Shown in pieces: positions 28,017 to 32,264 of a DNA stretch of 64,000 nt. The notes below the pieces were generated by a model that saw nothing but the letters and a program-made list of their open reading frames with translations, ran no database searches and had not been told where the DNA came from. The stretch comes from Actinotalea alkalitolerans (GTDB lineage: Bacteria; Actinomycetota; Actinomycetes; Actinomycetales; Cellulomonadaceae). Location of the stretch: positions 186,001-250,000 of the forward strand of contig NZ_JAMBPP010000001.1 in the NCBI RefSeq assembly GCF_023369855.1. The letters are read 5' to 3'. Each line of letters opens with the position of its first letter. Within the stretch, counting starts at the first letter, position 1. A program made the translations under genes and the position numbers.

Positions 28017-28898
28017 ATGAGCATGCCTCCCCAAGGCGAGCACCTGCTGTCGATCGGCGAGTTCTCGCGGCTCTCCCGGATCAGCGTCCGGATGCTGCGG
28101 CACTACGACGAGCACGGCGTGCTGCACCCCACCCGCGTCGATGCGTTCTCGGGCTACCGGTCCTACGCGCCGGACCTGCTGCGCACCGCCGGGCGGATCC
28201 GGGACCTGCGTGACGTCGGCCTCCGGGTCGACGAGCTCGCCGCATGCGCGTCCGTGCTGGACGACCCGTCGGCGCTCCGCCCGGTCCTGGAACGTCAGCG
28301 CGATCGCCTGCTCACCGACGCGTCGGTGGTGGCGAACCGGGTCCGGGAGGTGGAACGCCTGATCACCGATCTGGAGGTCACACTCATGTCTGTCGAGATC
28401 ACCCACCGCACGATCCCTGCTCGCACGGTCGCGTCCGTCCGCGACACCATCCCGGGCTACCAGGACGAGGGCCTGCTCTGGGAGCGGCTCATGGCCGGGA
28501 TGTCGGCCGTCGGCGCGCAGATGGCACCCGCCCCGCTCGCTGTGGCGGTGTTCCACGACGAGGACTACGTCGAGGCTGGGCCCGACGTGGAGGTCCAGCT
28601 CGACGTCGCCGCCGCCTTCCCCGAGACGGGCGACGTACGTTGCCTCGACCTGCCCGAGCAGCAGGTCGCCACCGGGACGATGCACGGCGGCTACGAGGGC
28701 ATCGGCGCCGTGATGGAGGCCATCGCCCAGTGGGCCGGGGAGCACGGTTACCGGTTCACGGGGCCGATGTTCAACATCTACGTGGTCGGACCGGGAGAGG
28801 AGCCCGACCCTGCGCGCTGGGTCACGGAGGTCTGCGCACCTGTCGTTCGCGCCGACGAGCCCGTCACGTCCGGCGCCGATGCGGACGGCGGGAGATGA
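28017..28898 (+). CDS. MerR-family regulator with GyrI-like effector domain
   Basis: The product is 293 residues. The N-terminal winged helix (LLSIGEFSRLSRISVRMLRH, then YDEHGVLHPTRVDAFSGYRSY) is a full MerR DNA-binding domain, followed by a dimer helix (about 75-120). A C-terminal GyrI-like small-molecule domain (about 130-280: TIPARTVASVRDTIPGYQDE, then FNIYVVGPGEEPDPARWVTE) resembles BmrR/TipA-type drug sensors. The short distance from the operator-like repeat to the ATG suggests a leaderless or very short leader. It overlaps the next GyrI-like gene by 4 bases. Confidence 0.9.
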   Translation: MSMPPQGEHLLSIGEFSRLSRISVRMLRHYDEHGVLHPTRVDAFSGYRSYAPDLLRTAGRIRDLRDVGLRVDELAACASVLDDPSALRPVLERQRDRLLTDASVVANRVREVERLITDLEVTLMSVEITHRTIPARTVASVRDTIPGYQDEGLLWERLMAGMSAVGAQMAPAPLAVAVFHDEDYVEAGPDVEVQLDVAAAFPETGDVRCLDLPEQQVATGTMHGGYEGIGAVMEAIAQWAGEHGYRFTGPMFNIYVVGPGEEPDPARWVTEVCAPVVRADEPVTSGADADGGR

Positions 28899-29574: not shown

Positions 29575-30303
29575 TCAGGGCAGGGCGAGGGAGGTGGCGA
29601 GGAGGCCCACGACCACGTACCCCGCCACCGCGGTCCCGGCCTGCACCCGTGGCGGCACCCGCGCACCGAGCAGCGAACCGGTCGCGGCGAGCCCGAGCTG
29701 CCAGGCGGCCGACGCCAGGCCGATGCCGACGACGAACGCGACCCGGTCGGTGGGCCCGGCCAGCCGGTCGCCCAGACCCGCCGCGACGACGGTGAAGTAG
29801 ACGACCGTCATCGGATTGACCGCGGTCAGGACCACGAACCGGACCAGGGTTCGCCCGGCCCCCGCCCCGAGATCGGCCTTTCCGTCGCTATCCGCAGCGG
29901 GCAAGCGACGGAAAGGCCGATCTGGACGAGGCGCCGAGCCGGGAGGTCGGTGTCGGCCGAGCGGCATGGTCGCCAGCGCGGTCGAGGGCGCGGTCGAGGG
30001 CGTCGGGCTGCGCAGGGCGCGGGAGAGGCCTGTGACCGCGACCCCGGCGAGCACCGCGGCGCCGATGAGCTCGACCTGGCGGTCGTGCCCCGCCAGGAGC
30101 GTGGAGACCGCCGTGCCCGCGAGCACCGCCACGACCGCGTAGGTGAGGTCGACCAGCGCAGCACCGAGCCCGCCGGCGGCGGCCGGACGCCAGCCGTGCG
30201 TCATCCCGGTCTGCAGCAGGAGCACCCCGATCGCGCCGAGCGGCACGGCGACACCCAGCCCGACGGCGACGCCCAGACCCAGGGCGGTGAGCAGCTCGAT
30301 CAT
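29575..30303 (-). CDS. LysE-family amino acid exporter with in-frame repeat insertion
   Basis: The product is 242 residues with about six helices. The family landmarks are VAVPLGAIGVLLLQTGMTHGWRPA at the N-terminus and RFVVLTAVNPMTVVYFTVVAAGLG in the fourth helix region with the conserved Asn-Pro. LysE/RhtB relatives are about 200-215 residues. The excess lies in the central cytoplasmic loop (about 105-150), which contains an Arg/Pro/Asp-rich stretch encoded by a 54-bp palindromic repeat at 29870-29923. It is divergent from an Lrp-family regulator with 79 bases between them, so it probably exports an amino acid under Lrp control. Confidence 0.88.
   Translation of the reverse strand: MIELLTALGLGVAVGLGVAVPLGAIGVLLLQTGMTHGWRPAAAGGLGAALVDLTYAVVAVLAGTAVSTLLAGHDRQVELIGAAVLAGVAVTGLSRALRSPTPSTAPSTALATMPLGRHRPPGSAPRPDRPFRRLPAADSDGKADLGAGAGRTLVRFVVLTAVNPMTVVYFTVVAAGLGDRLAGPTDRVAFVVGIGLASAAWQLGLAATGSLLGARVPPRVQAGTAVAGYVVVGLLATSLALP
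29870..29923. repeat. palindromic repeat, copy 1, in frame inside the LysE gene
   Basis: Perfect 20-base arms (29870-29889 and 29904-29923) enclose a 14-base loop that contains the smaller palindrome CCGCAGCGG. Arms and loop recur at 30932-30975. In the coding strand it reads DRPFRRLPAADSDGKADL, with no stop and no frame change. Confidence 0.85.
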
Positions 30304-30382
30304 GCGCGGGAGTGTGCTCCGGCCGGACCGCCACGTCGAGAGGATCCTGTGGATCTCACTGCTCTTCTGCGATGATCGCGGT

Positions 30383-30844
30383 GTGGACCCCACAGACAGA
30401 GAGATCCTCCGCGAACTGACCGCCGACGCCCGCGTCACCTTCCGTGACCTCGGCGCACGGGTGGGACTGTCGGCCAACGCCGTCGCGGCGCGCGTCCGTC
30501 GGCTGCAGCACGACGGCGTGATCGCGCGCTTCACCGTCGAGCTCGGCCCGGGCGCCGTCGGGCAGGGTCCAGCAGGCGGGCTCCCCAACGCCGGCGCGGG
30601 GCTCGAGCTGTACCTGGACGTGCGCCTCAAGGAGGGGGTCACCTGCGACGACTTCGCCCGGCAGCAGTCGGACTTCCGCGAGATCCTCGACGCCGTCCAC
30701 CTGACCGGCCCGTACGACTTCCTGGTCCGGGCCGTCGTCCCCGACGCCGCCGCCCTCGACCACCTCGTGCGCAGGCTCAAGACCGAGGCCGGCGTCGCCC
30801 AGACCTCGACCCGCCTCGCCATGCGCCCCCCCGCAACCCGCTGA
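30383..30844 (+). CDS. Lrp/AsnC-family transcriptional regulator
   Basis: The product is 153 residues. The GTG start gives DPTDREILRELTADARVTFRDL, the canonical AsnC winged helix, with recognition helix GLSANAVAARVRRLQHDGVI. A C-terminal RAM ligand-binding domain (about 75-145) follows with DVRLKEGVTCDDFARQQ and LTGPYDFLVRAVVPD. It is divergent from the LysE exporter, the arrangement of LysG/LysE and Lrp/BrnFE-type pairs. The effector is presumably an amino acid. Confidence 0.92.
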   Translation: MDPTDREILRELTADARVTFRDLGARVGLSANAVAARVRRLQHDGVIARFTVELGPGAVGQGPAGGLPNAGAGLELYLDVRLKEGVTCDDFARQQSDFREILDAVHLTGPYDFLVRAVVPDAAALDHLVRRLKTEAGVAQTSTRLAMRPPATR

Positions 30845-30856
30845 CCCGCGCGCCCA

Positions 30857-30890
30857 CACCCGCACCCCGCACCCACCCGCACCCCGCACC
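30857..30890 (+). repeat. 17-bp C-rich tandem repeat
   Basis: Two exact copies of CACCCGCACCCCGCACC (30857-30873 and 30874-30890) are followed by a degenerate third. The tract follows the Lrp stop codon. It is simple-sequence DNA with no coding role that I can see. Confidence 0.8.
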
Positions 30891-30931
30891 CGCTCGCACC
30901 CCGCCCGCCCCCACCCTCGCCGGCCGACATC

Positions 30932-30975
30932 GGGCCTTCCGTCGCTTTCCGCAGCGGGTAAGCGACGGAAAGCCC
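30932..30975. repeat. palindromic repeat, copy 2, intergenic
   Basis: 15-base arms (30932-30946 and 30961-30975, one mismatch) surround a 14-base loop TTCCGCAGCGGGTA that matches copy 1 at 12 of 14 positions. The orientation is the same as copy 1. It lies in the 511-bp gap between the Lrp and metQ genes and may also serve as a terminator for the Lrp gene. Confidence 0.8.
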
Positions 30976-31080
30976 CCTCTCGGCGGCGGGGGCTTGCGTG
31001 CGCGGACACGTGGGACGTGCTGGCGGGATCGCGTGCTACTTTGCCGATGTCATCCGCCCAGTAGGGATTTGGAGCATCAC

Positions 31081-31179
31081 GTGAACCACCCCGTGGTCAT
31101 CGAGCGACGCGCACGCTTCATGTGCGCCATGCCTGGTGCCTCCCGCGGGGTCATGTGCATGTCCGACGACCAGCGCTGA
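31081..31179 (+). CDS. Met/Cys-rich leader peptide before metQNI
   Basis: The ORF codes for 32 residues and starts with GTG. GGAG lies 6 bases upstream. The peptide contains RFMCAMPGASRGVMCMSDDQ, that is four Met and two Cys codons in two MC clusters. Its stop is 176 bases before metQ. Peptides rich in the regulated amino acid in front of transport or synthesis operons act as ribosome-mediated attenuators, and actinobacteria use such leaders for sulfur amino acid genes. Here stalling at Met or Cys codons could switch metQNI. The terminator and antiterminator folds were not resolved by eye. Confidence 0.6.
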   Translation: MNHPVVIERRARFMCAMPGASRGVMCMSDDQR

Positions 31180-31355: not shown

Positions 31356-32264
31356 ATGAAGCGCACCCTGACGCCCCTGCTCGCAGGGATCACCCTCGTC
31401 GCGACCCTCGCGGCCTGCGGGGGCGGTGACACCGCCGCTGCCCCGACGCAGGAGGCCAGCGTCGAGAACCCCGTCGAGGTCACCGTCGGCGTCACCGACC
31501 AGAGCCACGACTACTGGCGCACCTTCGAGGAGCTGGCCGCGGAGGCCGGCATCGAGGTCGAGCTGGTCAACTTCACCGACTACAACCAGCCGAACCCGAT
31601 CACCAGCCGCTCCGAGCTGGACCTCAACCAGTTCCAGCACCTGCTGTACCTGGCCAACTACAACGTCTCGGCGAACGACGACCTGGTGCCGATCGGTTCG
31701 ACGGCGATCTACCAGCTGGGCCTGTACACCGAGAAGGACTACACGACGCCCGACGACATCCCCGACGGCGCCGAGATCGCCATCCCCAACGACGTCGTCA
31801 ACCAGGCCCGGGCCCTGCTCGTGCTCCAGTCCGCAGGCCTGATCAGCCTGGCCGACGGCGGCAACGCCTTCTCGACGCCGGCCGAGATCGACGCCGACGC
31901 CTCACGGGTCACCGTGGTGCCGGTCGACGCGAACCAGACCACCGTCCAGCTGCGGAGCCTGGACGCGGCGGTCATCAACAACAACTTCGCGGCCGACGCC
32001 GGGATCGACCCGACCACGGCGATCTACTCCGACCTCGAGGACACCAGCACCGCACGCCCGTACCTGAACATCTGGGTGACCCGGGCCGAGGACGCCGACA
32101 ACCCGGTCTACAACCAGCTCGTGGAGATCTACCACTCCGACGAGGTCATCTCGCAGCTCATCGAGCAGAACGGTGGCACGGCCGTCTCGGAGGACATCGA
32201 CGCGGCCGAGCTGCAGGCAGACCTCGCCGAGCTCCAGGAGCTCGTCAGCAGCTCGCAGGGCTGA
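31356..32264 (+). CDS. metQ: methionine ABC transporter substrate-binding lipoprotein
   Basis: The product is 302 residues. GGAAAGG lies 8 bases before ATG 31356. The lipobox LAAC gives Cys at about residue 21. The NLPA/MetQ fold is clear: VTVGVTDQSHDYWRTFEELA, VELVNFTDYNQPNP, LDLNQFQHLLYLANYN, then AIPNDVVNQARALLVLQSAG and AAVINNNFAADAGIDPTTAIY. It captures methionine (family knowledge) for MetNI, which follow. It differs from typical MetQ in having DQSHDYW at the first strand. Confidence 0.94.
   Translation: MKRTLTPLLAGITLVATLAACGGGDTAAAPTQEASVENPVEVTVGVTDQSHDYWRTFEELAAEAGIEVELVNFTDYNQPNPITSRSELDLNQFQHLLYLANYNVSANDDLVPIGSTAIYQLGLYTEKDYTTPDDIPDGAEIAIPNDVVNQARALLVLQSAGLISLADGGNAFSTPAEIDADASRVTVVPVDANQTTVQLRSLDAAVINNNFAADAGIDPTTAIYSDLEDTSTARPYLNIWVTRAEDADNPVYNQLVEIYHSDEVISQLIEQNGGTAVSEDIDAAELQADLAELQELVSSSQG

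Follow-up and report, generated by a model that had tools for sequence, protein, structure and literature searches.

A short palindromic element dispersed in the genome of Actinotalea alkalitolerans and read in frame in two of its proteins

The window analyzed here, a stretch of 64,000 nt of Actinotalea alkalitolerans DNA (C11:186001-250000 of a 4.37-Mb genome comprising 35 contigs), contains a palindrome within the gene of an exporter and a second palindrome of similar sequence close by. This raises the question of whether the two are the product of a local duplication, an element that adds peptides to proteins like those known from Rickettsia, or members of a dispersed family that resides mainly outside genes.

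The palindrome and its copies in the genome

A preliminary description of this locus, made from the sequence alone, had proposed a palindromic repeat with a second copy about 1 kb away, and the repeat is real. In copy 1, two arms of 20 nt each, fully complementary, enclose a 14-nt loop; copy 2, at an offset of 1,057 nt, shares 84% identity with copy 1 over 62 nt (Table 1). The arm-gap-arm pattern occurred once in the window versus 0 times in 100 shuffles, and the folding energy of the copy 1 RNA (plus strand) was -46.4 kcal/mol versus -21.9 (SD, 3.3) for shuffled sequences. With the general model introduced below, the third-ranked match in the window after the two copies had 21.5 bits (E = 0.011). 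The loop CCGCAGCGGG alone carries no information, with 36 matches at one mismatch or fewer versus 32.5 expected by chance. Copy 2 lies, as had been stated, in a noncoding gap, 80 nt past the stop codon of an AsnC/Lrp-type gene, and its minus strand would be translated into REGAFRRLPAAESDGRPDV, similar to the peptide read from copy 1. Rfam provided no above-threshold match at either copy, and the sub-threshold matches there were limited to weak, unlikely families (eukaryotic microRNAs, VA RNA, and a plant virus promoter hairpin).

Table 1. Features of the window and related loci; positions refer to the window unless a locus (L) is given
Feature	Coordinates	Strand	Basis and remarks
Exporter gene of the LysE family (242 aa) in which copy 1 is translated	29575..30303	-	Translation; PF01810
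31-residue block (residues 115-145 as aligned), contains copy 1	29869..29961	-	Alignment; exact edges alignment-dependent
Copy 1, palindromic element, 58-nt core	29868..29925	+	Perfect 20-nt arms 29870-29889/29904-29923; general model; folding
C-rich left flank, copy 1	29828..29867	+	Skew -0.23, nearly same 40 nt
G-rich right flank, copy 1	29926..29967	+	Skew +0.29
AsnC/Lrp-type regulator gene, copy 2 its 3' neighbor	30383..30844	+	Pfam on residues from 30392; start codon by eye
C-rich left flank, copy 2	30885-30924		Skew -0.54, nearly same 40 nt
Copy 2, palindromic element, intergenic	30925..30982	+	Pattern search; covariance model; general model
G-rich right flank, copy 2	30983-31024		Skew +0.35
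NlpA-type lipoprotein gene	31356-32264		PF03180
DUF559-type genes bracketed by element copies	L076:5947-6819, L275:3245-4165
Second hairpin, in frame in GcvP linker	L153:2965-3078, L154:2147-2260, L155:2989-3102, L156:2977-3090
Same-plan hairpins, other genera/families	L051:1501-1578, L053:1501-1575, L055:1501-1573, L061:1501-1574

The genome-wide search suggested in the preliminary description uncovered a family. A covariance model trained on nine copies identified 18 distinct places in this genome, each matched on both strands with 57 to 93 bits, followed by a next match of 19 bits. The exact core pattern was found at 8 places, or 9 with a shorter arm, and the reversed pattern, which served as a control, at none. 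The mean identity among the 18 copies was 0.82 in the core and 0.39 and 0.37 in the two 60-nt flanks. The unit is thus sharply bounded and dispersed, and since 18 places share a similar core amid unrelated flanks, the element has been copied. A local duplication limited to two copies is ruled out by the 18 copies genome-wide. Independent, ordinary terminator hairpins that merely look alike would be expected 3' of genes, which is where the copies are mostly found (see below), but a core identity of 0.82 shared by 18 places whose flanks are unrelated requires copying, and the reversed control gave no occurrence; the core identity refutes this explanation, as well as chance, and leaves it a very small probability.

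The form found in this genome measures about 58 nt and consists of CGAGATSGGGCTTTCCGTCGCTWWCC, a short variable center, and GGWWAGCGACGGAAAGCCCGATCTCG; a stem of approximately 20 to 26 bp can form on either strand. The copies are located on 5 of the 35 contigs, and 7 pairs of neighboring copies are less than 2 kb apart versus 0.14 expected. At 27 to 30 kb of contig C11 (L076:5007-8336), four copies occupy four consecutive intergenic gaps, each separated from a stop codon by 7 to 97 nt.

All 18 copies have a C-rich left flank and a G-rich right flank, with mean skews of -0.40 and +0.34, respectively. The same was observed in three further species of the genus (G014, G010, and G003), where 15 copies showed the skew on the left in 14 cases and on the right in 15; with 30 copies, these numbers were 28 and 27. 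Both skews were present at the midpoints of 17 of 71 control gaps. Because the flank skew is found in convergent, tandem, and divergent gaps as well as in both genes that contain a copy, it is a property either of the element itself or of the targets chosen by it. Genus g44 does not show the skew (6 of 17 copies on each side), and in genus g7 it is weaker (10 and 13 of 15).

The distribution over the contigs was also uneven. The gene dnaA is on contig C31, which carries five copies, and the 11 clusters of copies are confined to 5 of the 35 contigs (post hoc P = 0.006). Four element regions have counterparts in the complete genome G006 at 78, 180, 317, and 409 kb from dnaA, and in G017, counterparts are found at 115, 343, 497, and perhaps 662 kb. 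In G010, the 1.16-Mb contig C1 contains none of the 20 copies, and C2, with dnaA, contains ten. The proximity of copies to the origin is thus suggestive, and a role can be envisaged in which the palindrome would be the predicted site of a sequence-specific DNA-binding protein, for example, a chromosome organizer acting near the origin. The long dyad, which has conserved blocks, would fit a dimer, and the contig bias, the copies on the dnaA contig, and the positions in G006 point in the same direction. On the other hand, many genomes of the same genus are devoid of the element, its arms are species-specific, and it invades genes; furthermore, the G017 counterpart of one C32 region may lie at a distance of 1.3 Mb from dnaA, and that of a region free of the element lies 221 kb away. 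We regard a protein binding site as rather unlikely.

Copies inside genes and placement at gene ends

The gene read through by copy 1 encodes, as had been proposed, an exporter of the LysE family (PF01810; E = 1.7e-16), and the palindrome is in frame in this gene, in a putatively cytoplasmic loop of the exporter, where the protein reads PDRPFRRLPAADSDGKADLG without a stop. The preliminary figure of about 18 added residues agrees with the core, which encodes approximately 19, but not with the complete block that is missing from orthologues, which amounts to 31 residues (93 nt). Of 39 genomes, 9 had a LysE match, the genome under study among them, and two of the other sequences were truncated by contig ends. 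The four same-genus orthologues that were aligned are without the block, and in none of them is the loop present in unrelated codons.

A second in-frame copy is contained in glycine dehydrogenase GcvP (PF02347 and PF21478), in the linker between the two halves of the protein, a stretch that is skipped by the alignments to two solved homologues. Compared to G018 and G004, the linker has 99 additional nt, and the block was absent from all 28 other rows of the linker alignment, which represent 17 other genomes; GcvP of G003 could not be placed since its contig ends there. Both proteins read the palindrome in one common frame (RRLPAxxSDGKxDLG), namely, FRRLPAADSDGKADLG in LysE and LRRLPAEESDGKPDLG in GcvP. 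Since 58 nt cannot be divided by three, the core must have been accompanied by the gain or alteration of adjacent bases. The in-frame insertion is therefore genuine and has a second case, which means that the entry of a palindrome into proteins is seen outside Rickettsia.

These two cases and their common frame, together with the fact that four to six of the six frames are open in each of the 18 copies of this genome, would agree with an element of coding regions comparable to the palindromic elements of Rickettsia, in whose sequence stops are avoided so that it can enter genes and add a peptide to their products. All six frames remained open in 2.5% of mononucleotide shuffles of one copy, and some stop-poor bias of the element is possible. 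Open frames are nevertheless common in GC-rich sequence, the agreement of two out of two copies in frame has a chance of one in three, and 16 of the 18 copies are intergenic. A specialization for coding regions is thus quite unlikely, and we consider the in-frame insertions a side-product of a palindrome that is mainly extragenic.

Genes were called by a codon-score script, on which the assignments to genes and intergenic regions as well as the coding fractions are based. Two of the 18 copies are inside genes, compared to a coding fraction of 0.888 in the window (p = 7.5e-14), indicating that genes are avoided or that such insertions are removed. To this we added the better-scoring hits of the general model in several genomes; 91 copies were matched and 90 classified, the remaining one (L291:2831) being in a tandem gap. 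A number of observations were derived from these data. (i) Two of the 90 classified copies were wholly genic, and three overlapped a gene end, by 37, 10, and 3 nt. (ii) Within the genus, the 48 classified copies comprised 12 in convergent, 23 in tandem, and 11 in divergent gaps and 2 in genes. The share of convergent gaps among the intergenic copies was 12/46 versus 12/94 in control gaps (p = 0.059), and that of divergent gaps (11/46) resembled the control (p = 0.69). (iii) In other genera, 42 classified copies were distributed over convergent (16), tandem (23), and divergent (1) gaps, and 2 were at locus edges. The control gaps of these loci were 5 convergent, 20 tandem, and 16 divergent of 41, corresponding to an excess of convergent positions (16/40 versus 5/41; p = 0.005) and a deficit of divergent ones (1/40 versus 16/41; p = 5e-5); 39 of 40 copies were found at or after a stop codon. 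(iv) The median distance to the stop codon was 41 nt in the genus and 38 nt in other genera, and a stop codon was present within 100 nt for 31 of the 46 intergenic copies of the genus and for 34 of the 40 copies of other genera.

This placement, less distinct within the genus than in other genera, is what a two-way hairpin at transcript ends would show, and a role in termination would be in line with it. No U-tract terminator or T-rich tract following a stem was recognized between positions 28500 and 32500, which include both copies; terminators devoid of a U tract have been proposed for mycobacteria. We hold it to be fairly probable that the palindrome is a dispersed, non-autonomous, REP-like element that is kept mainly as a two-way hairpin at the 3' ends of transcripts. 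Its copies would be retained just 3' of genes because they are tolerated there, where the hairpin would probably mark the end of transcription in both directions or stop 3' exonucleases. Most insertions into genes would be removed by selection. The copies in LysE and GcvP are best read as rare tolerated insertions, presumably survivors in flexible linkers that are translated into a few hydrophilic residues without apparent function.

Relatives in the family and pairing of the arms

A first model searched against 59 genomes, including that of A. alkalitolerans, detected strong further copies in three species of the same genus (G014, G010, and G003), and some match at an E value of 1 or less, many of them weak, was present in 24 of the 59 genomes. 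A match in G058, which belongs to another family, had an E value of 6.8e-5 and quite different arms. A general model (R3) was then built from 20 copies of the genus. At E values of 0.001 or less, it matched 42 of 150 genomes of the family, or 40 of the 139 of good quality, representing 12 of 25 genera; many genomes of the same genus are without the element. In terms of specificity, no match at E < 0.01 was obtained in 20 element-free stretches of the genome under study and at 11 unrelated long-hairpin loci. The ends CGAG...CTCG are common to the different forms, an agreement that for other genera is partly selected by the model, and the arms are species-specific. Arms of genus g44 read CGAGAACGGGGTTGCGGTCGTT...AACGACCGCAACCCCGTTCTCG and those of genus g7 CGAGACCGGGGTTTCTTCGCTTT...AAAGCGAAGAAACCCCGGTCTCG; the recurrence of the same arms within each of the other genera is independent of R3.

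The changes in the two arms are coupled. In a set of 20 copies from four species of the genus (5 of the 18 copies of A. alkalitolerans and 15 others), 55 double-change cells were counted versus 22.2 (SD, 3.7) in shuffled alignments. In 15 copies of genus g7, from which one 58-nt copy was omitted, this number was 39 versus 12.1 (SD, 2.6), and in 20 copies of G010 it was 35 versus 17.8 (SD, 2.9); none of 500 shuffles reached the observed value in any of the three sets, and the relatedness among copies inflates such counts. Pairings slid by 1 to 3 columns provided at most 25 (own genus), 7 (g7), and 7 (G010) double-change cells. Other measures were less discriminating: further pair types were matched by 73, 331, and 12 of 500 shuffles for the genus, g7, and G010, respectively, and the number of pairs with double changes in G010 was reached by 95 of 500. 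The copies of A. alkalitolerans alone showed 8 double-change cells versus 6.3 in shuffles (reached by 137 of 500), which is not significant, and 7 double-change pairs versus 4.6 (38 of 500). The paired change fits selection for the hairpin as well as correction of imperfect palindromes by template switching, two processes that these counts cannot separate. How two changing arms remain complementary can now be tested with this family.

Moving agent and comparison with known palindromic elements

The best-known REP-type palindromes are those of Proteobacteria, in which their spread is attributed to RAYT transposases. A transposase of this type (Y1_Tnp; PF01797), the search for which had been recommended in the preliminary description, was detected in none of the 19 same-genus genomes searched; applied to 14 control genomes, this search was positive in 5. 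As far as was searched, the element would therefore be moved by an agent other than a Y1 transposase of its own genome. Neither an insertion sequence with the same ends nor a lone arm was detected in the genome at up to one mismatch, every arm match being a known copy. Two lone arm matches appeared at two mismatches, and looser searches of the arms gave 56 and 42 matches in all versus 9 and 7 in the reversed control. At 16 of the 18 copies there was no target-site duplication of at least 3 nt; one copy had a duplication of 4 nt and another one of 3 nt. No exact match of the core was found in IMG/VR, and neither blastn of copy 1 against plasmids and phages nor a search of plasmids with two forms from other genera provided a match. 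Searches in an open-access collection (PMC) yielded no paper on this repeat and no occurrence of six arm fragments.

A gene of the DUF559 type (PF04480, above the cutoff; restriction-endonuclease-like) is bracketed by copies of the element in both A. alkalitolerans and G010. The two proteins are 47.6% identical and have otherwise unrelated neighbors; in one species the stop codon and the element are 7 nt apart, and in the other they overlap by 3 nt. These two genes were the DUF559-type genes present in 408 kb of element loci, and none was found in 503 kb of mixed control loci. With so few cases, a recurrent partnership of DUF559 with the element is a lead rather than a claim. The copies may be imagined as recombination or cassette sites that bracket single genes, which would be gained and lost by recombination, perhaps with the nuclease as a partner. 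This would account for the four copies in successive gaps of C11, an arrangement that would also be expected of integron attC sites, for the single genes bracketed in several genomes, and for the bracketed DUF559-type gene at otherwise unrelated loci of two species. Against it, the bracketed genes are of many kinds, copies also occur alone and inside genes, and a location between genes combined with local clustering is enough to space copies about one gene apart. Such a cassette function is very unlikely. A broader proposal, which we also judge unlikely, is that hairpin elements multiply within genomes across the whole family without a Y1 transposase, with fixed ends, arms that are rewritten jointly (perhaps by template switching) and thereby give every species its own form, the DUF559 nuclease as a possible partner enzyme, and C-rich and G-rich flanks that would mark sites where single-stranded hairpins form.

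Returning to the REP-like reading, the element was compared to known palindromes as they are described in the sources cited. (i) Rickettsia palindromic elements are about 150 bp long, and nearly half of them are in ORFs (PMC10969869). The likeness to them that the preliminary description had noted holds for a palindrome in frame in unrelated genes, LysE and GcvP, whose orthologues are without the insertion, but does not extend to a specialization for coding regions, given that the present element has 58 nt and a small share inside genes (2 of 18 copies in this genome, 16 being intergenic, and 2 of 90 classified copies). (ii) The GTAG- and CGTC-tagged REPs are located mainly between convergent and unidirectional genes, and some are genic. 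For the CGTC group, no transposase is known and five other phyla are named, and the word "actinobacteria" is absent from the main text of that article (PMC3733652). The element studied here is REP-like in the wide sense of a short, dispersed, multicopy palindrome that is mainly extragenic (18 copies, 16 of them intergenic). It differs in its length (about 58 nt versus 20 to 40 nt), in its CGAG/CTCG ends, which pair with each other and leave, as judged by eye, neither a GTAG nor a CGTC tag unpaired at the base of the stem, in the absence of a Y1 transposase from the 19 genomes of the genus, and in a copy number (18) below the usual hundreds. (iii) SPRITE of Streptococcus pneumoniae is described as a dispersed, terminator-like hairpin near 3' ends that is enriched between convergent genes and for which target-site duplication was not established (PMC3049150). 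The element would resemble it in its proximity to stop codons and in its convergent enrichment, which is distinct in other genera (p = 0.005) and less clear in the own genus (p = 0.059), but it is GC-rich, has no U tract and equivalent strands, is unrelated in sequence, and is present in many genera. (iv) As MITEs are, it is short, non-autonomous, dispersed, and composed of inverted repeats, but no target-site duplication was seen at most copies, and an autonomous element carrying these arms was not seen in the genome. Since it behaves in the manner of a REP or SPRITE but differs in the defining properties of RAYT-mobilized or tagged REPs, Rickettsia palindromic elements, and MITEs, it represents a variant of the short-palindrome kind and looks like an actinobacterial counterpart of short spreading palindromes without their usual transposase. 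An element present in 12 genera of one actinobacterial family, with species-specific arms and no RAYT in its own genus, makes the spread of hairpins without RAYT testable.

Other hairpins were encountered during this analysis. The GcvP linker of five species of the same genus carries a second hairpin, in which a conserved core of about 60 nt is enclosed by long arms; these arms are complementary within each species and different between most of them. G008, G011, G012, and G014 have the insert at the linker point, and the copy of G003 is cut by the contig end. The same hairpin is present in antisense orientation in the infB-rbfA gap of seven species (L185-L191). It is unrelated in sequence to the 58-nt element, had no match in the genome of A. 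alkalitolerans, including its element loci and the window, and matched no Rfam family. The GcvP linker thus holds two unrelated hairpin elements in different species, which makes it an insertion-tolerant point of a conserved enzyme. In other genera and families, we observed long hairpins, nearly perfect, that follow the same plan and may belong to the class of the 58-nt element; their arms are quite different, and their right flanks are often G-rich. In G011, a genome listed as 9% contaminated, one long hairpin occurs twice with nearly identical flanks, on C3 and C29 (L056:1501-1576 and L074:1501-1576). Finally, a short ORF at positions 31081-31179 of the window (VNHPVVIERRARFMCAMPGASRGVMCMSDDQR), with several Met and Cys codons, is located upstream of the NlpA-type lipoprotein gene and perhaps encodes the leader peptide of an operon that would serve methionine uptake.
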